Shown: positions 36,743 to 58,958 of the stretch, piece by piece
Layout: every line of letters begins with the position of its first letter
Position numbering within the stretch: the first letter of the stretch is position 1
From: Ahrensia sp.
GTDB taxonomy: Bacteria; Pseudomonadota; Alphaproteobacteria; Rhizobiales; Rhizobiaceae
Direction of reading: 5' to 3'
Length of the DNA: 64,000 nt
NCBI GenBank assembly: GCA_028817895.1
Contig: JAPPOQ010000030.1
Location: forward strand, 62,001 to 126,000
Made by a program: the position numbers and the translations under genes
Notes under the pieces: generated by a model
The model's database searches: none
What the model saw: only the letters and a program-made list of their open reading frames with translations
Told to the model about the DNA's origin: nothing

Positions 36743-37819
36743 ATGCGCATAATCAAATTGCTCCTCGCCACCGTCGTCCTGCTGATCGGCGCGTTTTGGG
36801 TGTCATCATATTTGCTCATGCGAGATACCGAACCGCATGCCTATGCGCCGGTGACCGAAACGGAGAAACAGGAAGCGGAGGCCTATATTGCTTCGGGTCT
36901 CGCATCCATGCCTACCGGTTGGAAATGGGGCACGTTTGAACCACAACCCGGTGTCGTGTTGCGCACCGGTCAAGCGAAGACCAGCACGTCGCCGCGCAAG
37001 GGAACGGTCGTGCTGGTGCCAGGCTATACGGCAATGCTCGAACTCTATTCCGAGACCTTCCAGACGTTCTTGAACGATGGTTATGACGTGGCAGCGCTGG
37101 AATATCGCGGGCAAGGCCTCTCCCATCGTGAACTGGACAATCCCGAGAAGGGCTATGTCTCAAGCTATGACATGCTGACCGGGGAACTTGCAGACTTCAT
37201 CAACCAGTTGAAAGTGGACGGGGCCGGCCCTGTCCACATCTATGCCAATTCCATGGGCGGCCACATCGCTTTGCGTATGGCGGGGCAGGATCGGCCAGAT
37301 GTCGCTTCCTATTTTCTCCTGGTGCCAATGGTGAAAATCGAAACGGGAGACTTTCCTTACGGTGTCGCGCGCGTTCTAGCCGGCTTTTACAGTTACACAG
37401 GGCTTGGCAATGCGTTCGCGCCCGGTCAGGGCCCTTTCGTGCCAGGGCAAGAGAAGCTCGGCACCCCCTCCCCCTGCATGAACAATGCAAAAACCGCGCA
37501 AATTCGCGACGCGCTTTTCATTCGCAACGAAGCCTATCGCGTGACCGGCACCACCAATGACTGGGTGACGCGGACCATGGCATCCACCGATCTGATCGCA
37601 TCGCAGAGTTTCGTTGATCGCGTCAAGAAGCCAGTTTTCATGGTGACGGCTGGAGACGATCGCTGGGTGAGCACCGAGGCAGCCACGCAATTGTGTGAGC
37701 GTTTGAGCAGCTGCGAAATCGCTCATTACGAGGAATCACGCCACTGCATTGCGCGCGAAAAACCCGAAACCGCGCAAGACATTTTCCGCAAGGCCAAGGA
37801 TTTCTTTGCGGCGAACTGA
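36743..37819 (+). CDS. Membrane-anchored alpha/beta hydrolase (serine aminopeptidase/lysophospholipase type)
   Basis: About 358 residues. An N-terminal helix (IIKLLLATVVLLIGAFWVSS) anchors or exports the protein. The hydrolase fold has VVLVPGYTAMLELYSETFQT, AALEYRGQGLSHREL, the nucleophile elbow IYANSMGGHIAL (serine in NSMGG), MVTAGDDRWVS (aspartate) and YEESRHCIAREKP (histidine). This is the Hydrolase_4 lysophospholipase-like family. ATG 36743 is the first Met before the helix; MGQSTAM at 36725 is an alternative. A MITE-like repeat follows 33 bp after the stop. Confidence 0.85.
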   Translation: MRIIKLLLATVVLLIGAFWVSSYLLMRDTEPHAYAPVTETEKQEAEAYIASGLASMPTGWKWGTFEPQPGVVLRTGQAKTSTSPRKGTVVLVPGYTAMLELYSETFQTFLNDGYDVAALEYRGQGLSHRELDNPEKGYVSSYDMLTGELADFINQLKVDGAGPVHIYANSMGGHIALRMAGQDRPDVASYFLLVPMVKIETGDFPYGVARVLAGFYSYTGLGNAFAPGQGPFVPGQEKLGTPSPCMNNAKTAQIRDALFIRNEAYRVTGTTNDWVTRTMASTDLIASQSFVDRVKKPVFMVTAGDDRWVSTEAATQLCERLSSCEIAHYEESRHCIAREKPETAQDIFRKAKDFFAAN

Positions 37820-37852: not shown

Positions 37853-38163
37853 TAGAGCAAGTCTCGTCCAGATTGGAGCAGTTTGATGGGATGGATTTTT
37901 CGATCTGGCAAGGAGAACACCGCAGAGCGATGCTGGGCATCGCGCGAGGATTTCGACGCCGCCAGAGCGGAAAAGACACCCAAGCAAATCGTATGCAAGG
38001 CAATGAAAGTGAAAAGTAATCTGCAATCGTTTGAGCTTGTGTCTTTGCGCCCTGACTGCGTTGCGCACGAACTTGTGGTGCCCGCACCGCGGCGTCGCAC
38101 GCGCCTTGTCAGGTCACAAATTCCCCGCGCTCAAACGATTCAATCTGGGCGAGATTTGCTCTA
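37853..38163 (+). repeat. MITE-like element, copy 1
   Basis: A 311-bp element flanked by TA on both sides, with imperfect terminal inverted repeats GAGCAARTCTCGYCCAG. It is full length and about 90% identical by eye to copy 3 at 57976-58286. No transposase is encoded. The right end reaches into the SH3-like gene on the minus strand, whose last 16 residues ([16 protein letters not shown]) and stop come from it. An ORF of 93 codons crosses the element but looks neutral. Confidence 0.85.
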
Positions 38164-39277
38164 GTTGAAATTCGCGTGGTGTGGTGAGGTCGTCGCTGCA
38201 CACAACCTGAATTGTGCCCGCTGCTTCATCGACCTTGCCGCCAGCAATCCCACTGCACTTCCCGTCCTTCAAGAGCTGCAAAGCATGATGGCGCAGCGTT
38301 ATGACGGATTTCTCCGAAAGGTCGGAATTCATGCCCGGCAGAACCGCAAGTCTTTCATCCAGCAATTCCAGCGTCATGATGGTCGGAACACTCGCCGACG
38401 CCGGTTGCTTGAGCGCCTCGATGCGCTGTTCAACACTGGCAGACGGTGAGAGCTTCAATTCCGGTTCGACATCATTCTTCACCTTCGCAAGAACAGAGCC
38501 ACGATTGGCGGCGATCCAGGCCGCCATCTTGTCGTCGGTGAGCCCGGTCGAGCCTTCCGGCTCAACCGGATTGAGTGCCACCTGAGTGGGTCGCAGTTTC
38601 TCCACCACGGCGGGGCGGGACGGGGTCTGCGCAGGCGTAACCAAGGTGCTGGGTTGCAAGGGCGCCGCGGTCAACGTGAAACTGTCGTTGGGCAAGGTCT
38701 GGACTGCGGCAGTGGTTGGCTTTGGCTCAACTGCAGTCTGGCTGGCTTGCTCGATGGTGCTGTCGCTGTCTTGTTGGGTCGTCTCGTTCAGCGCCGCCGT
38801 CTCAGTGCGCACAGTCTCAATGGGCAACGCGGCGGTGGCGCTATCAGGGCGATGAACAGGCAAAGTCACCAGACGCTTCTGGCGTTGGTTGCGTGCCCGT
38901 TCACGTGGCTTGCTTGACGCGGCAGCTGAAGGGGCACCGTCGCCGGCAATTCCTTCAACATCGCCGGTGATCTTGAGTGTTGACAGCCTGATCCAGTGTG
39001 CTGGCGTTTCCGGCACCTTTTCTCCATAGCGAAGCACCAGCGCTGGACGGTCCAGATAGGGCGAAATACGTGCCCAGCCGGAGCGCGTTTCGAACACCTC
39101 AAGCTTCGAGGTCAAAGTGTAAGGGTGATAAGAAACCGAAAAACACGTCACCGGACACAGCCGCACCGTTGGAAAACGTTCTCCTGCGGCTTCGGCAGGG
39201 GCAGAAGCCAATCCTAACATCGAAACCGATGCTGCAAGCGCTGCTGCAATTGCAAGTCTGAGCATCAAAAATCGCAT
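38114..39277 (-). CDS. Secreted SH3-like protein with element-derived C-terminus
   Basis: About 387 residues. A signal peptide (MLRLAIAAALAASVSMLGLA, cleaved near AEA) precedes a Cys-containing N-terminal domain (VRLCPVTCFSVSYHPYTLTS, SGWARISPYLDRPALVLRYG) resembling a bacterial SH3 fold, then a long Thr/Ala/Pro/Gln-rich low-complexity linker and a helical C-terminal domain (SVEQRIEALKQPASASVPTI; LDERLAVLPGMNSDL). The final 16 residues are translated from the MITE end. The start is ATG 39277 rather than TTG 39280. A CtrA-like box lies 62 bp upstream. Function unknown. Confidence 0.75.
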   Translation of the reverse strand: MRFLMLRLAIAAALAASVSMLGLASAPAEAAGERFPTVRLCPVTCFSVSYHPYTLTSKLEVFETRSGWARISPYLDRPALVLRYGEKVPETPAHWIRLSTLKITGDVEGIAGDGAPSAAASSKPRERARNQRQKRLVTLPVHRPDSATAALPIETVRTETAALNETTQQDSDSTIEQASQTAVEPKPTTAAVQTLPNDSFTLTAAPLQPSTLVTPAQTPSRPAVVEKLRPTQVALNPVEPEGSTGLTDDKMAAWIAANRGSVLAKVKNDVEPELKLSPSASVEQRIEALKQPASASVPTIMTLELLDERLAVLPGMNSDLSEKSVITLRHHALQLLKDGKCSGIAGGKVDEAAGTIQVVCSDDLTTPREFQLEQISPRLNRLSAGNL

Positions 39278-50454: not shown

Positions 50455-52269
50455 ATGTTTCGCCGCCTCAGTCTCATCGCAGCTTCTTTTGCTTTGCTTT
50501 TTGCTACTGGCTACGCGCAGCAGGCAACCGACGAGGTCGCTCCGGAAAGCGGCACGACCCAACAACAGGCACCGGCAGATGATGGTGTTGTGGCTCCCAA
50601 GCCCGGCGCGCGGATCGCATCCCCCAATCTCCGACCGGCGATCAAGGCGCAAAAATGGATGGTGACTGTCGCCAATCCGCTGGCGGCACAGGCGGCGGCG
50701 GATGTGCTGAAGGGTGGCGGCAATGCGGTTGATGCTGCCGTTGCGGCACAAGCCATGCTTGGCCTGGTGGAGCCGCAATCGTCCGGTCTCGGCGGCGGTG
50801 CCTTTCTGGTTTATTTCGATGCCAAAGCTGGTCGTCTGACTACGCTTGACGGGCGCGAAACCGCACCCGCAGCAGCCACGCCAACCTTGTTTCAGGACGA
50901 TAATGGTGAGCCGCTAGAATTTTTCGACGCCGTGATTGGCGGACGCTCGGTTGGCGTGCCGGGAACGCCTGCCCTTATGGTCGAGATGCACCGCCGTTGG
51001 GGCAGCCGCAAATTTGGCGATTTGCTGCAACCCGCCATCGATCAGGCCCGTCGCGGATTTGTTGTCTCGCCAAGATTGGCGGCCTTGACGGAACGCAGCG
51101 CGGAGTTTCTCGCCAAGCAAAAAGAAGCGGCGGACTATTTCCTGCCCGGTGGACTGCCCGTTGACGCTGGCCGCCTGCAGGTCAATCTGGACTATGCCGA
51201 AACGCTATCACGGCTGGGCAATGACTTGGGACGCAGCTTCTATGAAGGCGGCGACGCGACAGCGATTGTTTCGACGATCAAGGGATTTGCGGCCAATCCC
51301 GGCGTCATGGAGATGGCCGATCTCGCCAATTACTCTGTTAAGGAGCGCGAGCCGGTCTGCATCGCCTATCGCGTTTACGATGTGTGCGGCATGGGCCCGC
51401 CATCTTCCGGTGCGCTGACCGTTGGTCAAATTCTGGGACTCATCGAACCGTTCGACATTGCTGCTCTCGGGCCGAACGATGTCGATTCGTGGCGGCTGAT
51501 CGGCGACGCATCGCGCCTCGCCTTTGCAGACCGGAGTCGTTACATGGCCGACAGCGATTTCGTTCCCATGCCCACCAAAGGCCTGATGAAAGACGATTAT
51601 CTGGCCGAAAGAGCGCGGATGCTGGAAAGCGACCGCGCGCTCACCAAGGAACAGGTTGCGCCCGGCTCTCCAAGTTGGGATCACGCAACGCTTTTGGCTG
51701 ATGATGAGTCGCTGGAACTGCCCTCCACATCACATTTTTCCATAATCGATGAGGCGGGCAACGCGGTTTCCATGACCACGACCATCGAAAACGCGTTCGG
51801 GTCGCGCTTGATGGTCAACGGGTTCCTGCTCAACAATGAGCTCACCGATTTTTCCTTCCGCAGCCATCGCGACGGCGTCCCGATTGCCAATCGCGTCGAA
51901 CCGGGAAAACGGCCACGTTCCTCCATGTCACCGACAATCGTGATGAAAGACGGCAAACCTGTTCTGCTGATTGGATCGCCAGGCGGTAGCCGCATTATCG
52001 GCTATGTCGCCAAAACGATCATCGCGCATCTGGATTGGGGCATGAACATTCGCGCCGCAATCGAATTGCCTCATCTGGTCAACCGGTTCGGCACATATGA
52101 TCTGGAAGCAGGCACTGATGCGGAAAGCATGAAGGCCGTCCTCGAAAATATCGGTTATGAGGTCAATATTCGCGATCTCAATTCAGGCCTGCACGGCATT
52201 TCAATCTATGAAGACGGGTTGCAGGGCGGAGCTGACCCGCGCCGCGAGGGTGTAGTGATCGCCGAATAG
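50455..52269 (+). CDS. ggt: Gamma-glutamyltransferase
   Basis: A 604-residue periplasmic enzyme acting on glutathione. A signal peptide is present (MFRRLSLIAASFALLFATGY AQQ). ANPLAAQAAADVLKGGGNAV and VEPQSSGLGGGAFLVYFDA open the mature part; the autoprocessing threonine lies in ELPSTSHFSIIDEAGNAVSM, and PRSSMSPTIVMKDGKPVLLI is the C-terminal signature. Large and small subunits would form by self-cleavage. A short MITE-like repeat begins 12 bp after the stop. Confidence 0.95.
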   Translation: MFRRLSLIAASFALLFATGYAQQATDEVAPESGTTQQQAPADDGVVAPKPGARIASPNLRPAIKAQKWMVTVANPLAAQAAADVLKGGGNAVDAAVAAQAMLGLVEPQSSGLGGGAFLVYFDAKAGRLTTLDGRETAPAAATPTLFQDDNGEPLEFFDAVIGGRSVGVPGTPALMVEMHRRWGSRKFGDLLQPAIDQARRGFVVSPRLAALTERSAEFLAKQKEAADYFLPGGLPVDAGRLQVNLDYAETLSRLGNDLGRSFYEGGDATAIVSTIKGFAANPGVMEMADLANYSVKEREPVCIAYRVYDVCGMGPPSSGALTVGQILGLIEPFDIAALGPNDVDSWRLIGDASRLAFADRSRYMADSDFVPMPTKGLMKDDYLAERARMLESDRALTKEQVAPGSPSWDHATLLADDESLELPSTSHFSIIDEAGNAVSMTTTIENAFGSRLMVNGFLLNNELTDFSFRSHRDGVPIANRVEPGKRPRSSMSPTIVMKDGKPVLLIGSPGGSRIIGYVAKTIIAHLDWGMNIRAAIELPHLVNRFGTYDLEAGTDAESMKAVLENIGYEVNIRDLNSGLHGISIYEDGLQGGADPRREGVVIAE

Positions 52270-52280
52270 ACACCGCCTAA

Positions 52281-52512
52281 TAGAGCAAGTCTCGTCCAGA
52301 TTGGAGCAGTTTGATGGGATGGATTTTTTGATCTGGCAAGGAGAGCACCGCAGAGCGATGCTGGGCATCGCGCGAGGATTTCGACGCCGCCAGAGCGACA
52401 AAAGACACCCAAGCAGGTCGTTTCCGACACTCTAAAACTGAGCCGAAATCTGCAATCGTTTGAACTTGTATCTTTGCGCTCAAACGATTCAATCTGGGCG
52501 AGATTTGCTCTA
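52281..52512 (+). repeat. MITE-like element, copy 2 (internally deleted)
   Basis: A 232-bp copy in the same orientation as copy 1, with the same TA-flanked ends. About 79 bp of the right half are missing, between short GCG repeats, and several point changes have accumulated. Its right end gives the TAG stop of the DUF2312 gene on the minus strand. Confidence 0.82.
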
Positions 52513-52782
52513 ATTTTCGCTTTCTGAAATGCCATCACCGGGAATCATGCCCAGCGCTGACAGATACAGATCGAGCATGGCTTCCTGCTCCTGCCGTTCG
52601 GCGACTTCAACCTTGCGCAGACGAACGACCTGACGCAGCGTTTTGACGTCAAATCCATTGGCCTTGGCTTCGGCGTAGACATCGCGAATGTCGTCGGCGA
52701 TGGCTTTCTTTTCCTCTTCGAGGCGTTCGATACGCTCAACGATAGACCGCAACTGATCGCGGGCAACCGATGTGTCGGCCAT
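52510..52782 (-). CDS. DUF2312 protein (GapR-like)
   Basis: A 90-residue protein: [40 protein letters not shown] and [20 protein letters not shown] form the long coiled-coil helices of DUF2312, the family of the nucleoid-associated protein GapR. AGGAGA precedes ATG 52782. The stop codon TAG is formed by the end of MITE copy 2. GapR binds overtwisted DNA in Caulobacter; whether this paralogue does so is inferred. Confidence 0.9.
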
Positions 52783-52892
52783 GTGAGTCTCCTGCATGAG
52801 GCGCGGACGGGAACAGCGTGTTCAACAGCAATCCGCGCTGCTGTTCAACCGCTCAGTTGGCTCAAACGCGTGGATTGCTCAACCACCCAGTG

Positions 52893-53198
52893 TCAGCTGT
52901 GCGTGTGGCTTTCCGCGAAGGCCTGTTTTTGGGCATCTGTCGCTTCTGTCTGATATTTCTCCCGCCACTCATCAAAGGGCATGCCATAGATGATTTCGCG
53001 GGCTGAAAGCTTGTCTAGATCGATTCCCCGGTCATTCGCCGCCTCCTGATACCAGCGCGACAGGCAATTGCGGCAAAAGCCGGAGAGATTCATCAAATCG
53101 ATGTTCTGCACATCGGTGCGTTCGCGCAGATGAGCCACCAGAGTGCGAAAGGCGGTGGCCTCCAATTCGGTTTGTGTGGCTTTGTCGATATCCGTCAC
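52893..53198 (-). CDS. DUF1244 protein
   Basis: A 101-residue protein starting at GTG (MTDIDKATQTELEATAFRTL). LRERTDVQNIDLMNLSGFCR and NCLSRWYQEAANDRGIDLDK, with IIYGMPFDEWREKYQTEAT, are the full DUF1244 signature. Function is unknown. The start overlaps the upstream amidohydrolase stop by 4 nt (GTGA), which shows translational coupling. Confidence 0.93.
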   Translation of the reverse strand: MTDIDKATQTELEATAFRTLVAHLRERTDVQNIDLMNLSGFCRNCLSRWYQEAANDRGIDLDKLSAREIIYGMPFDEWREKYQTEATDAQKQAFAESHTHS

Positions 53199-54004
53199 AG
53201 GCTTTCTCCCGTATCGGCCGGGGCGTCTGCCCGCGAGCCGTAAAACTTGATTTCATGCATATCGGCCCGGGTATTGGCCTCTTCAAGCAGTGGCGCGAGC
53301 CTGTCCGCCCATCTACGCACCCCTTCATCATCTGCGATGAGATCGTTGCGGACTTCCACCAGCGTGTGTGGCAGGCCGTGCTGGGTTGCGTGGGTGTACA
53401 TGGTGTCGTTCTTCAACGCGCCATCATAGGGCTCATTGTCGCCGACGACGAGAGAGGGGTCCGCGCATAGGCGGTCCAGCATGAAGCGGGTCAAGCGTGG
53501 ATCCTTGTCCCACAAAAACCCAGCATGCCATTTGCGCGGCCTGCCCTTCCATGCCGGAGTAAAGGAGTGGATGGAGAAAATCATCGGCGCTATGCCGCTG
53601 TTCGTCGCGCGGCTGATGACGCGCGCAATCGCCATGCGATATGGAGCATGGTAAAGCTCGATGCGGCGCTGGATTTCCTCTTCATCGATCGGATGGTTGC
53701 CCGGGACGACCGTCCCATCCGATAAACGCATGATGACGGTTGGGTCGTCAGTTCCCCGATTGGGGTCGATAAGCAGACGTGAAAACCCACTCAACACAGC
53801 AGGAACGCCCAGCCGTTCGGCCAGAGCGAGGGTCAGATCGGCAGCGCCAATGTCATAGGCAATGTGGCGCTCAAACTCGGATGCCGGCAGACCGAGGGTT
53901 CCGTAATGTTCGGGAAGTGCGTTTCTGGCGTGGTCGCACAGCAAAACGATCCCGCCATCATAGGCCCCGTCGACAATCTCAAAGGCATGGAAGTATTCGC
54001 TCAT
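53195..54004 (-). CDS. N-formylglutamate amidohydrolase family protein
   Basis: A 269-residue hydrolase. IVLLCDHARNALPEHYGTLG, HIAYDIGAADLTLALAERLG and LLIDPNRGTDDPTVIM hold the metal-binding region of the FGase family, with ELYHAPYRMAIARVISRATN and MIFSIHSFTPAWKGRPR following. It may work in histidine degradation or on an N-formyl or N-acyl amino acid; no hut genes are nearby. The Met at 54004 is chosen over TTG 54022. It is coupled to DUF1244 by GTGA overlap and divergent from the DMT transporter. Confidence 0.88.
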   Translation of the reverse strand: MSEYFHAFEIVDGAYDGGIVLLCDHARNALPEHYGTLGLPASEFERHIAYDIGAADLTLALAERLGVPAVLSGFSRLLIDPNRGTDDPTVIMRLSDGTVVPGNHPIDEEEIQRRIELYHAPYRMAIARVISRATNSGIAPMIFSIHSFTPAWKGRPRKWHAGFLWDKDPRLTRFMLDRLCADPSLVVGDNEPYDGALKNDTMYTHATQHGLPHTLVEVRNDLIADDEGVRRWADRLAPLLEEANTRADMHEIKFYGSRADAPADTGESL

Positions 54005-54084
54005 GCGTGGGTCGTCCGGCAATCAGAGAACTAGGTTCGAAAAGCTGAAGTCTGGCTTATTGTCACAGCGCTTCGGGTGGTTCA

Positions 54085-55038
54085 ATGCTTGGACATCAGG
54101 CCACGACTCGACCAAGGACAGGGCAAAGCGTGTCCCGCAAAATTGCCGAACCCGAACTGCCCTTCACGACCGCTTTCGCCGCACTGGTCGTCGGGGCCAT
54201 CGCCATGGGCATTTCTCCGGTTTTTGTGCGCATTGCCGAAATCGGCCCCTTTGCCAGCGCCTTCTGGCGGGTTTTTCTGGCACTTCCGGTGCTCATTTTG
54301 TGGGTGATCTGGGAATGCAAGCGCACCGGTCGCGATCTGCCGACCTGGCGGTCCTATGACCGCGCAATCCTTCTGTGCGGCGCGTTCTTTGCCGGCGATC
54401 TCTTTTTCTGGCATCTGGCGATCCTGAACACCACCATCGCCAATGCGACACTTTTGTCTTGCCTAGCGCCGGTTTGGGTTGCCCTGTTTTCAGGTCTCTT
54501 CATCGGGGAACGGGTGACCCGGGAAGTTTGGGGCGGATTGGTCATTTGCCTGCTTGGCGCGGTTCTGCTGATCGGGTCGAGCTACAGCCTCGTGCCTGAC
54601 CGATTGATCGGCGACATATATGGTGTCTTCACCTCGCTTTTCTTTGGGCTGTATATTCTCGCAGTTCGCGTCGCGCGTCGCAGCCATGGTGCCGGAGCCA
54701 TGACCTTTATGAGCGCCACCGTGACCGCGCCGATCCTGTTTGTTACGGCCATCATTGCCGGGCAGTCTTTCATTCCCGAAACAATGACCGGCGTCGCCGC
54801 ACTGGTCGCGCTCGGTGTCCTGTCTCACTCGGGTGGTCAAGGCCTGCTTGCGGTCGCGCTTGGGTCACTTTCGGCTGCTTTTTCTTCCCTGGTCATCTTT
54901 ATTGAAGCCCTTGCCGCTGCCTTTGTCGGGTGGCTGGTCTTTGCGGAGACGCTCACCCCCTTGCAGGGTCTTGGGGGTCTGCTGATCCTGTTCGGCATCT
55001 GGACGGCCCGTCAAAAACCATCAGAGGGCGCGCGTTGA
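54085..55038 (+). CDS. DMT-superfamily (EamA) transporter
   Basis: A 317-residue membrane protein with ten helices in two EamA repeats: FAALVVGAIAMGISPVFVRI and ASAFWRVFLALPVLILWVIW in the first, GVFTSLFFGLYILAVRVARR, SHSGGQGLLAVALGSLSAAF and VIFIEALAAAFVGWLVFAET in the second. Likely an exporter of small metabolites. The first 15 residues (MLGHQATTRPRTGQS) look doubtful; GTG 54130 could be the true start. The gene is followed by the DUF1036 gene after 50 bp. Confidence 0.88.
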   Translation: MLGHQATTRPRTGQSVSRKIAEPELPFTTAFAALVVGAIAMGISPVFVRIAEIGPFASAFWRVFLALPVLILWVIWECKRTGRDLPTWRSYDRAILLCGAFFAGDLFFWHLAILNTTIANATLLSCLAPVWVALFSGLFIGERVTREVWGGLVICLLGAVLLIGSSYSLVPDRLIGDIYGVFTSLFFGLYILAVRVARRSHGAGAMTFMSATVTAPILFVTAIIAGQSFIPETMTGVAALVALGVLSHSGGQGLLAVALGSLSAAFSSLVIFIEALAAAFVGWLVFAETLTPLQGLGGLLILFGIWTARQKPSEGAR

Positions 55039-55088
55039 CAGGTCGCGGGGAAACGGGCAACAGATTTCAAACGGGACGAGGACCCGAT

Positions 55089-55538
55089 ATGCAGTCAAAA
55101 AGCCCTTTTTCACAAACGCTTGTGGCGGCGCTTGCGCTGGTCGGCGGCGTGACGGCAGCAAGCCCAGCTCAAGCCGATCTGCAGGTGTGCAACGACACAA
55201 AATCGCTTGTGGGCGTGTCGATCGGCTACCGGCTTGATGATGACTGGATTACGGAAGGCTGGTGGCGCGTTCCTGCTACCGTCTGCACGTCAGTGATCGA
55301 AGGAAAGCTTAATGCGCGTTATTTCTACATTCATGCCGAAGAGGCCGACGCCGGCGGTCGTTGGCGTGGCCCCGTTTTCATGTGCACGTCAAACAAGCAA
55401 TTCAAAGTCCAAGGTGTTCAGGACTGCTTCGCCCGTGGTTATGAGCGCGCCGGTTTCTTTGAGGTGGATACGGGCGAGCAGGAAAGCTGGCAGGTTCGGC
55501 TGACAGAAGCTGATCGAAAGGACGATTCAGAGCAATGA
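55089..55538 (+). CDS. Secreted DUF1036 protein
   Basis: A 149-residue periplasmic protein. A signal peptide (FSQTLVAALALVGGVTAASP, then AQA) precedes the DUF1036 domain: DLQVCNDTKSLVGVSIGYRL, WITEGWWRVPATVCTSVIEG, RYFYIHAEEADAGGRW and FMCTSNKQFKVQGVQDC. Four cysteines are conserved. Function is unknown. The pyk ATG overlaps its stop as ATGA. Confidence 0.9.
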   Translation: MQSKSPFSQTLVAALALVGGVTAASPAQADLQVCNDTKSLVGVSIGYRLDDDWITEGWWRVPATVCTSVIEGKLNARYFYIHAEEADAGGRWRGPVFMCTSNKQFKVQGVQDCFARGYERAGFFEVDTGEQESWQVRLTEADRKDDSEQ

Positions 55539-56986
55539 ACCGCAACCGCCGCGTCAAAATTCTGGCGACTTTGGGGCCAGCCTCCAACAATCCGGAGATG
55601 ATCTTCAAACTCGCAAGCGCCGGGGCTGATGTTTTTCGCATCAATATGAGCCATGCCAGCCACGATGTGATGCGCGGTACAGTGGCGGCCATACGCGGTG
55701 TGGAAGAGCAATTGGGCTTTCCCATTGGCATTTTGGTCGACATCCAAGGCCCCAAGCATCGACTCGGAGTTTTTGAGAAGGGCGAGATTGACGTCCAGCC
55801 GGGTCACGTCATCACGCTGGACAGCGACCCGAAGCCCGGAAACACCGAACGTGTTCATCTGCCACATCGCGACATTTTGGACGCGATGCAGATTGGTCAT
55901 CGCATGCTCGTCAATGACGGCAAGGTCGAACTGCGGGTGATCGAGACCGGCGACGGGTGGGCACGCGCAGAAGTGGTATCCGGCACCTGGCTTGCCGACA
56001 AGAAGGGCGTCAATCTGCCTGATTCCGAACTCGCATCAGGCGCGCTCACCGAGAAGGATCGCAAGGACCTGGACGCTGCCCTGCAGGAAGAGATTGATTG
56101 GGTGGCTCTGTCCTTCATCCAGCGACCTGATGACCTGGCGGAAGCCCGCAAAGTCTGTCGCGGACGGGTCGGCCTTATGGCCAAGATCGAGAAACCGCAG
56201 GCCATGCAACGGCTCGACGAAATCATTGAAAACTCTGATGCAGTCATGGTCGCGCGCGGTGACCTCGGCGTAGAGATGCCGCTTGAGCTCGTACCGTCCA
56301 TGCAGAAAAAGATGATCCGCAAATGCCGCAAGGCGGGACGCCCCGTGGTCGTTGCCACGCAGATGCTGGAATCGATGATCAACGCACCCGTGCCAACCCG
56401 CGCGGAAGTCTCTGATGTGGCCAACGCGGTCTATGAAGGCGCCGACGCCATTATGCTGTCGGCGGAATCAGCGGCTGGCGATTATCCACTCGAGGCTGTC
56501 TCCACAATGAACTCAATTGCCGAGGCCATCGAGAGTGACAAGGGCTATCTCGACACGATTGCAAGCCAGCGCCCCGAGCCCGAGCCCACCGGTTCCGACG
56601 CGATTTCTTATGCTGCTTCCGAAATCGCCGACACGCTCGGCCTTGCAGGAATTGTGTGTTTCACAGCCTCCGGCTCCACCGGCCTGCGTGCGGCCCGTGC
56701 GCGCCCTGCCAAGCCGATTTTGGCCTTGTCGCCGGTCCCCAAAACCGCCAGACGCCTCGCCCTCGTGTGGGGAACACAATGCGTCATCACGCCGGATGCT
56801 GGTGATTTGGACGATATGGTCGACAAGGCCTGCCGCGCCGCTTATCGCGAAGAACTGGCTCGGCCCGGCGACCGCATCATCATTTCAGCAGGCGTACCAT
56901 TACGTACGCCCGGTTCGACCAATATGCTGCGCATCGCCTATATTGGCAGCGACGGGCAGGGCAGCATTCACCGCTCGACTGATTGA
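55535..56986 (+). CDS. pyk: Pyruvate kinase
   Basis: A 483-residue glycolytic enzyme: RRVKILATLGPASNNPEMIF, FRINMSHASHDVMRGT, GLMAKIEKPQAMQRLDEIIE (catalytic Lys), AVMVARGDLGVEMPLELVPS and VVVATQMLESMINAPVPTRA, then EVSDVANAVYEGADAIMLSA. The C-terminal regulatory domain is complete. The start codon overlaps the DUF1036 stop by 4 nt. Its 3' end overlaps a convergent hydrolase gene by 19 bp. Confidence 0.96.
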   Translation: MNRNRRVKILATLGPASNNPEMIFKLASAGADVFRINMSHASHDVMRGTVAAIRGVEEQLGFPIGILVDIQGPKHRLGVFEKGEIDVQPGHVITLDSDPKPGNTERVHLPHRDILDAMQIGHRMLVNDGKVELRVIETGDGWARAEVVSGTWLADKKGVNLPDSELASGALTEKDRKDLDAALQEEIDWVALSFIQRPDDLAEARKVCRGRVGLMAKIEKPQAMQRLDEIIENSDAVMVARGDLGVEMPLELVPSMQKKMIRKCRKAGRPVVVATQMLESMINAPVPTRAEVSDVANAVYEGADAIMLSAESAAGDYPLEAVSTMNSIAEAIESDKGYLDTIASQRPEPEPTGSDAISYAASEIADTLGLAGIVCFTASGSTGLRAARARPAKPILALSPVPKTARRLALVWGTQCVITPDAGDLDDMVDKACRAAYREELARPGDRIIISAGVPLRTPGSTNMLRIAYIGSDGQGSIHRSTD

Positions 56987-57945
56987 GCAATTGATTGCGC
57001 CGCCACTCTGCGGATCGCACCCACAACGACATCGGTGGCGATGTAATCGGGCTTATGGCCAACGCCCGGAAGAACCGTCATTTGTGCTCCCGCTATATCA
57101 CGCTCCAAACCGACCGAGTGGATCTCGGGCAACACGACATCGTCTGAATCGCCGGTGATGATTTCGGTGGGCGCGGCAATGGATTCGTAACGCGGCTGAA
57201 AGCGTGTCACGAAAGCCTTCAGCGTCGCAACATCATGAGCGTTGTGGCGAAAAGTCTGTGGTCGCAGAACAAGTTTGACGGCGCTGTCGCTGGCATAGTC
57301 GGGCACTGGCTTATTCGGCTTGAAGACGCTGGCGACCCCTGAATCAAGACCGACTCGACCAAAGGGCAGCGTGAGCGTTTCGGTAAACAGCCAGCCGATG
57401 ATCGGCAAGCTTGCAATGTCATAGTACCAGGTCACGCCGCCGGGCCATTCATGCGTTGCTGGCGCAACGAATACCAGACCCTGCACTCTGTCGGGGTGAT
57501 TTACGGCCATGGCGGCAGCCGATGCGCAGCCAAGCGAATGGCAGACGATAATGGCGCTTTCCACACCGATTTCGGACAGAAACTGCGCATAGATGTCAGC
57601 CTGCTTAGCCGGATCATCGGCGCCTGCCCGGTCCGAATAGCCGTGGCCGGGTCGGTCTATGAATATCAGCCGTCCAGTACCCGAAAGCGCATTTTCATAG
57701 GCCACGCGCTGATCATTGAGGTTGCCGCTCGCGCCATGGATGAAAAGAATTGGCGGAAGATCGCCCCGGGCCTGCAAATCAACGAAATGGAGGCGACCAT
57801 TGGAGAGTTCGACGAATTGACCCTGCGGAGGATGAGCCTGTTCGATCTGCGCAACCTGCAGCCGAGTCCAGATGAACAGTGCAACAAATATCGCGACGAC
57901 CAGGACGAGAGTGATCAGAAGAACCTTCAAAACCGAAACCGCCAA
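56968..57945 (-). CDS. Membrane-anchored alpha/beta hydrolase
   Basis: A 325-residue hydrolase. An N-terminal helix (SVLKVLLITLVLVVAIFVAL) leads to LPPILFIHGASGNLNDQRVA (oxyanion HG), LIFIDRPGHGYSDRAG, the nucleophile elbow IIVCHSLGCASAAAMAV, EIITGDSDDVVLPE with the Asp, and LPGVGHKPDYIATDVVV with the His. It resembles haloperoxidase/epoxide-hydrolase-like esterases; the substrate is unknown. It ends 19 bp inside pyk, tail to tail. The MITE copy 3 lies 30 bp upstream of its start. Confidence 0.87.
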   Translation of the reverse strand: MAVSVLKVLLITLVLVVAIFVALFIWTRLQVAQIEQAHPPQGQFVELSNGRLHFVDLQARGDLPPILFIHGASGNLNDQRVAYENALSGTGRLIFIDRPGHGYSDRAGADDPAKQADIYAQFLSEIGVESAIIVCHSLGCASAAAMAVNHPDRVQGLVFVAPATHEWPGGVTWYYDIASLPIIGWLFTETLTLPFGRVGLDSGVASVFKPNKPVPDYASDSAVKLVLRPQTFRHNAHDVATLKAFVTRFQPRYESIAAPTEIITGDSDDVVLPEIHSVGLERDIAGAQMTVLPGVGHKPDYIATDVVVGAIRRVAAQSIAQSVER

Positions 57946-57975
57946 GCCATTCCTGAACCTATGGGGCCCTGACCC

Positions 57976-58286
57976 TAGAGCAAATCTCGCCCAGATTGAA
58001 TCGTTTGAGCGCAGGGAATTTGCGGTTTGACAAGGCGCGTGCGACGCTGTGGTGCGGGCACCACAAGCTCGTACGCAACGCAGTCAGGGCGCAAAGTGCC
58101 AAGCTGGAACGATTGCAGATTATTCTTCATTTTCATTGCCTTGCATACGGTTTGCTTGGGTGTCTTTTCCGCTCTGGCGGCGTCGAAATTCTCGCGCGAT
58201 GCCCGGCATCGCTCTGCGGTGTTCTCCTTGCCAGATCGAAAAATCCATCCCATCAATCTGCTTCAATCTGGGCGAGACTTGCTCTA
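57976..58286 (-). repeat. MITE-like element, copy 3
   Basis: A full-length 311-bp copy in reverse orientation to copy 1, with the same TIRs (GAGCAARTCTCGYCCAG) and TA at both ends. By eye it differs from copy 1 at about 30 positions. It fills the gap upstream of the hydrolase gene and its other end forms the TAG stop of the TPR protein gene. Confidence 0.85.
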
Positions 58287-58958
58287 GATACCGCTTCCGG
58301 CCAACTCTTCTTCAAGACGCAGAACAGCTGTCTGAGCAGGACGCATCGCGGGATAGACTTCAAGCGCGCGATACCAGGTCGCCAATGCCCGTTTTTTGTA
58401 ACCCTGTTGCTCCAAAATGTTGGCCAAACCCGCCAAGGCACCGAAGTGACGCGGCTCCAGTGCCAGCGTGCGCTCAATGTCTGCCACCGATTTCGAAAAA
58501 TTCTTCATCATGAAATGCAATGTGGCGCGTTGGTTGAAGCCTTCTGCATAGTTGGGGCGCAAAACCACAACCTGATCGAGAAGATCGAGCGCTTTGCCAA
58601 AGCTTTTACGCTCGGCTGCCGCCCGTGCCCATGTGGTTAACAGATCGACGGATCGGCTGTCTGAACGGTGCCAGTGTTCCCAGATTGCAGTTGAAATCCG
58701 CTCCGCTCGCTTCTGGGAGGCCGCACGCTTTAATTGCGCAAACAAGCTATCGAGATCCTTTGCCAGAACAAAGCCGGGCTGCGGCACATCAGGAATGTGC
58801 AGCTCATTGTCCTCGGCTTCCGCGTCTTCACGCTGAACGGGTACCTGTTGTGACTGGGAAGGCTGGGCTTGCTTGTTGGGTTGCGAAGCGGTCTGCGCAA
58901 ATGCGGGTGCCGCTGCGAGCATAGTGCTGAGCGCACCGATGATGGCGAGCCTGATCAT
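58284..58958 (-). CDS. Secreted TPR-repeat protein
   Basis: A 224-residue protein with a signal peptide (MIRLAIIGALSTMLAAAPAF, then AQ), a Gln/Pro-rich stretch and then TPR units: SVDLLTTWARAAAERKSFGK, ALDLLDQVVVLRPNYAEGFN, QRATLHFMMKNFSKSVADIE, RTLALEPRHFGALAGLANIL and ATWYRALEVYPAMRPAQTAV. A periplasmic scaffold is likely. The TAG stop is supplied by the end of MITE copy 3. An inverted repeat (CGTCAGC/GCTGACG, 58961-58980) lies directly upstream of the start. Confidence 0.88.
   Translation of the reverse strand: MIRLAIIGALSTMLAAAPAFAQTASQPNKQAQPSQSQQVPVQREDAEAEDNELHIPDVPQPGFVLAKDLDSLFAQLKRAASQKRAERISTAIWEHWHRSDSRSVDLLTTWARAAAERKSFGKALDLLDQVVVLRPNYAEGFNQRATLHFMMKNFSKSVADIERTLALEPRHFGALAGLANILEQQGYKKRALATWYRALEVYPAMRPAQTAVLRLEEELAGSGI

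Follow-up and report, generated by a model that had tools for sequence, protein, structure and literature searches.

A TA-bounded MITE in Ahrensia sp. whose first base completes TAG stop codons at gene ends

Three copies and their neighbor genes

The window, the whole 64,000-nucleotide stretch of Ahrensia sp. DNA that was analyzed, contains three copies of a MITE, and all three adjoin the 3′ ends of genes (Table 1). The 21-bp end pattern of the element has six matches in the window, where none is expected, and each copy possesses both ends. A GapR/DUF2312 gene and a TPR-protein gene run into two of the copies. As claimed in a preliminary description of this DNA, both genes end in a TAG that is composed of the flanking TA and the first G of the element, at 52510-52512 and 58284-58286, respectively. 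An Rfam search of 52200-58400 returned two matches, both far below their gathering scores.

Table 1. The three MITE copies of the window, their target duplications, and the adjoining genes
Feature	Position	Strand	Basis
MITE copy, 228 bp, internally shortened; L end left, R end right	52283..52510	+	Element boundaries and 21-bp ends
Left TA target duplication of the 228-bp copy	52281..52282	.	Junction sequence
Right TA target duplication of the 228-bp copy; with element base 52510 makes the TAG of the DUF2312 gene	52511..52512	.	Junction sequence
GapR/DUF2312 gene; empty site AAT TAT TAG, one residue lost by insertion	52510..52797	-	PF10073 (E=3.5e-35); empty-site rebuild
MITE copy, 307 bp; R end left, L end right	57978..58284	-	Boundaries and 21-bp ends
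Left TA target duplication of the 57978-58284 copy	57976..57977	.	Junction sequence
Right TA target duplication of the 57978-58284 copy; makes the TAG of the TPR gene with the G at 58284	58285..58286	.	Junction sequence
TPR-protein gene; stop older than the insertion, empty site ATC TAG GGT	58284..58958	-	Empty-site rebuild and orthologues
Third MITE copy, 307 bp, target CTAG; TA at 37853-37854 and 38162-38163	37855..38161	+	Boundaries and 21-bp ends
Called gene without Pfam match; enters the R end of the third copy for 16 codons (stop included); empty-site end ...FQLASN*	38114..39115	-	Gene call, empty-site rebuild
Alpha/beta hydrolase gene; ends 33 bp short of the third copy's TA	36743..37819	+	Gene call, Pfam

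Restoration of the stop by the insertion, as proposed in the preliminary description, is correct for only one of the two genes. In a search of 14 other genomes of the genus, all 12 orthologues of the TPR gene that were found have their last residue at the same position, followed by TGA, TAA, or TAG. The TPR stop is a true restoration of a pre-existing one. For the GapR/DUF2312 gene, the orthologues have C-terminal ends that vary at that place, and its stop was created by the element one codon before the old TAG rather than restored. Relatives do have a stop at this place for the TPR gene; the empty site of the DUF2312 gene reads TAT TAG. The third copy is inserted four codons before the end of the called gene, whose final three residues are exchanged for fifteen others.

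The element and its target site

The element is a MITE of ~307 bp that is bounded by TA and has the terminal inverted repeats and small size by which MITEs are recognized. Its inverted ends are 21 bp long and follow the pattern GAGCAA[G/A]TCTCG[C/T]CCAGATTG. The L end usually begins with GAGCAAG, and the R end usually begins with GAGCAAA. The end pattern was matched 116 times in the genome (46 contigs, 3.54 Mb), with 100 of these among the matches listed. The junction set is made up of 103 junctions that begin with the six letters GAGCAA, have no more than two mismatches to either end form, and are flanked by at least 12 bases. These comprise the paired junctions of 27 two-ended sites and a further 49 that are single, many of which lie at contig ends. 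Among the two-ended copies, 20 are 305-310 bp long, four are 328-335 bp, and three are 143-228 bp. Their mean pairwise identity is 86%, with a range of 54-100%. At one locus (L051), two R-type ends lie on the same strand 24 bp apart (G000 C7:155347 and 155371), possibly due to a nested or repeated insertion.

The bases in front of the element are strongly conserved. Across the 103 junctions, the first is C or T in 97, followed by T in 91 and A in 96; the base that precedes TA is C in 61, T in 36, A in 3, and G in 3. TA itself is present at 86 of the junctions and on both sides of 19 of the 27 two-ended sites. Empty sites were rebuilt by joining the flanks at these 19 sites; this set does not include the 8 two-ended sites that lack TA on one side or the 49 single junctions. 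The target is YTAR at 17 of the 19 sites (CTAG 8, TTAG 5, CTAA 2, TTAA 2), and the remainder are CTAC and ATAA. At many sites the base outside the TA differs between the left and right flanks, and therefore only the TA is duplicated, rather than all four bases.

Elements of the IS5 type duplicate YTAR as 4 bp. Membership of the IS5 group is ruled out here, together with a 4-bp duplication, by unequal flanking tetranucleotides, e.g., TTAG and CTAG at C7:96060. IS5-type transposases (PF01609) were also considered as the partner of the MITE and rejected. The genome has three matches (L119, L120, and L121), two of them with internal stops, and no paired GAGC ends were seen around them by eye.

Since the target is YTAR and not bare TA, a TAA or TAG can be read on either strand of almost all targets. 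This is the key fact that was absent from the preliminary interpretation. Both ends of the element start with G, so the strand that enters the element reads YTA-G. In the consensus element, the frames other than TA+G continue for ~11 or 55 codons from the L end, and for 18 codons or without any stop from the R end. The TA+G frame is therefore the sole clean ending.

In-frame stops and the supply of YTAR sites

Genes were called on the fetched loci with a simple, home-made, codon-based scorer. At 20 of the 103 junctions, the gene entering the element stops in frame at TA plus the first G of the element. Of the 22 called genes whose frame stays open up to a junction, 20 end there and the other two read past it. 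At three of the 20 stop junctions, the TA is preceded by G or A.

Of the 19 rebuilt empty sites, five lie in an existing in-frame stop (four TAG and one TAA), two in the last four codons of a gene, and 12 between called genes. No insertion is found deeper in a gene among these 19 sites, although called CDS contain 1182 of the 2006 YTAR half-sites. The proposal that a TA target and a G tip regenerate TAG from TAG or TAA thus holds beyond the window. Gene ends are also upheld as a harmless landing place, where insertion in a TAA or TAG stop leaves the protein unchanged.

Orthologues were sought in four genomes for 18 of the stop-junction genes and in the genus for the other two, with the best 14 matches at or above 45% of the best score listed. 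They were found for 17 of the 20 genes. At least one listed orthologue has the identical end residue in 12 of these 17, and all listed orthologues do so in five. No gene among the 17 has exclusively longer orthologues, where the C-terminal offsets of variable tails are approximate and derive from BLAST ends.

The preliminary description called for a genome-wide survey of stop enrichment. The supply table for this comparison covers 805 kb of the 3.54 Mb, with the element-poor contig C32 over-represented. It contains 824 non-coding YTAR half-sites, and stop codons account for 82 of these, or ~10% of half-sites and ~20% of sites. At the level of junctions there is a mild enrichment, with 20 stops among 103 junctions compared to 82 among 824 non-CDS half-sites (Fisher p=0.007, the two junctions of a site being treated as independent). 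An earlier supply table of 415 kb gave p=0.004 for the same excess.

Most of the enrichment disappears when either gene-end supply or target letters are matched. With proximity to gene 3′ ends matched, stops and the next 60 bp are used at 20:19, where 82:97 are available (p=0.60); the same split for YTA flanks only is 17:11 (p=0.16). With the exact target letters matched, five stop sites are seen and 4.4 are expected (n=17). Stop use is shown to be near supply. Junctions located at a stop or no more than 60 bp after it number 39 of 101, compared to 179 of 824 half-sites (p=0.0004; the two read-through junctions are left out). The stop surplus largely reflects an excess at gene 3′ ends, as expected if promoter and gene-body hits are lost. 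A small residual excess is observed at TTA-flanked junctions, with nine stops of 31 and ~9% expected. Hits at stops and in the final 45 nt of genes stand at 20:2 against a supply of 82:23 (p=0.24), which gives no clear sign of avoidance of the latter. Regeneration of stops had been offered as a possible reason why copies abut gene ends. This does not hold in general, as in-frame stops are absent from 83 of the 103 junctions and from the third window copy.

Explanations, relatives, and known systems

The best explanation, with a probability of roughly 0.84, is that the element is an IS630-type MITE whose YTAR target and G tip regenerate TAG and whose harmful hits are lost, with no extra stop-seeking mechanism needed. 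The MITE is probably non-autonomous and moved in trans by an IS630-type (Tc1/mariner-related) transposase. The junctions show that it inserts at the TA within a YTAR palindrome, its preferred target (most commonly CTAG), and duplicates that TA. By the sequence, a hit in a TAA or TAG stop produces an in-frame TAG with the protein unchanged; in the other two frames, the gene reads on into the element. Insertions in gene bodies would be removed by selection, and the distribution suggests that the survivors are those between genes, at stops, and in the last few codons. The clean rebuilt targets and the lack of any match to the MITE in the 14 other genomes of the genus may reflect transposition. 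The effect is a neat yet fairly ordinary consequence of the target preference of a known transposon.

IS630/Tc1-mariner insertion sequences and their MITEs, e.g., RUP with IS630-Spn1, have the same TA duplication, YTAR/CTAG target, and inverted ends as the element described here. A preference of IS630 transposition for the TA in CTAG is stated in the title of a work cited in PMC2170065. ISY100 is described as transposing by cut-and-paste into TA.

IS630 loci were sampled as 30 PF13358 loci, a subset of the matches listed, and paired ends were sought 850-1400 bp apart. TA-bounded inverted ends are present at ten of the 30, at distances of 1023-1179 bp, compared to none of 300 shuffled control loci. 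A narrower limit of 1000-1060 bp gives six candidates of 30. The tips of the ten candidates are GAGC in five, AAGC in one, and other in four, and the target is YTAR in nine. The half with tips other than GAGC speaks against the best explanation. Two candidates lie in stop codons (L223 and L225), and both belong to the five with GAGC tips. These five, found in genomes belonging to the same family, combine the GAGC tip of the MITE with a YTAR target; of the end sequence, the tip alone is common to them and the MITE, and the full 21-bp ends were not found in them. No autonomous element with these ends was found with two end patterns in genome contigs and one in viral contigs, collections from which the genome itself is possibly absent. 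One IS630-type element with paired ends was seen in this genome (L122 1004-2026, G000 C24). It has GAGCG ends, a TA duplication, the target CTAA, and two overlapping frames, and has only the GAGC tip in common with the MITE.

Of 296 other genomes of the family, six match the end pattern with two to three mismatches. One of the six contains a true relative, an element of ~303 bp with the same architecture in a different genus (G289, L126 1503-1804). The two ends of this element have changed in concert, which suggests that they may have coevolved with another transposase. Twelve end-like junctions were classified from four genomes that belong to two other genera; four of them are in-frame TAG stops, all in one genus, with L127 resting on a weak gene call (score 9). 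The set of 12 excludes L124, L125, and L130, which have no GAGC tip. Both ends are in hand for only two of these elements (L126/L216 and L219/L220). It is unlikely that IS630-type elements combine a YTAR target with a G-first tip as an adaptation in its own right, conserved across diverged families and genera because stops are a safe harbor in TA-poor genomes.

Retention of copies at gene ends for a function, e.g., as transcription terminators or 3′-end stabilizers, is unlikely. The copy at 52281-52512 forms a strong predicted hairpin (z -5.8), and the excess of junctions at or within 60 bp past a stop would agree with such a role. Stop junctions are formed by 15 L ends and five R ends (p=0.044). 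At distances of up to 30 bp, the gene boundary facing an L end is a 3′ end in 22 cases and a start in one, whereas the numbers for R ends are 15 and 12 (p=0.0013). However, these orientation tests are post hoc, and the two-ended sites have no bias (nine in tandem sense and eight in antisense). Moreover, the nearest gene reads away at 48 of the 103 junctions, the element has no match in the rest of the genus genomes searched, and the loss of promoter hits would yield the same 3′ excess.

Stop codons could also be actively sought, with target choice coupled to translation termination or evolved toward stops. The junction-level surplus over the ~10% of non-CDS half-sites and the excess at TTA-flanked junctions are in its favor. 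This is nevertheless very unlikely, as the ratio of stop to downstream hits near gene ends equals supply, five of 17 rebuilt YTAR sites are close to the 4.4 expected, and most rebuilt sites (12 of 19) lie between genes. Least credible is coincidence or a gene-calling artefact: though any TA-G junction yields a chance TAG in one frame out of three and the gene caller is simple, nearly all genes that reach a junction end at TA+G (20 of 22), and this reading is refuted for the TPR gene and for four other genes in which all listed orthologues end at the identical residue.

Repeats that supply stop codons are already known, and the probable IS630-type MITE described here adds a tidy general rule. 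RUP is reported to have stop codons in all six frames (PMC2229807). It is thus closed in six frames, whereas one frame into the R end of the present element is open through the consensus. In pneumococcus, 58 CDSs overlap BOX repeats, and for 36 of them the repeat supplies the stop, with no strong evidence that they are truncated (PMC3049150). Both elements supply stops, but the section on BOX draws no link to target and first base, and host and element differ. Pneumococcal repeats are also described as over-represented between convergent genes. In Coxiella, QMITE1 and QMITE2 overlap gene 3′ ends by 1 to 50 bp (PMC5896051). These short overlaps are alike, but the QMITE cases are presented singly in the account consulted, which contains no availability test. 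MITEPsy1 has a similar target, CTAG or YTAA, and is listed as derived from ISPsy2 and marked "IS5?" (PMC3189936); it has a 4-bp duplication, in contrast to the TA observed here. No statement of the TA+G (target-plus-first-base) rule was found in the literature searched, which gave partial coverage.

According to this rule, the target letters of a transposon and its own first base together determine if an insertion at the end of a gene is silent. Any TA-inserting element with G as its first base, or with A to give TAA, is predicted to occupy TAA and TAG stops free of cost. For annotators, a TAGAGC that ends a gene may mark the boundary of a repeat. Contig C32 (351 kb) has a single standard element end, at the very end of the contig. 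Its TAG stops (73) outnumber its TAA stops (36), and when the triplets after these TAG stops were checked for TAGAGC, AGC was outside the eight commonest. At the R ends of four loci, L040, L052, L063, and L093 (G000 C1:41181, C7:171608, C14:230, and C36:55), the flanking TA is only 1-3 bp from a called start codon, and therefore the usual ribosome-binding region is replaced by the element.
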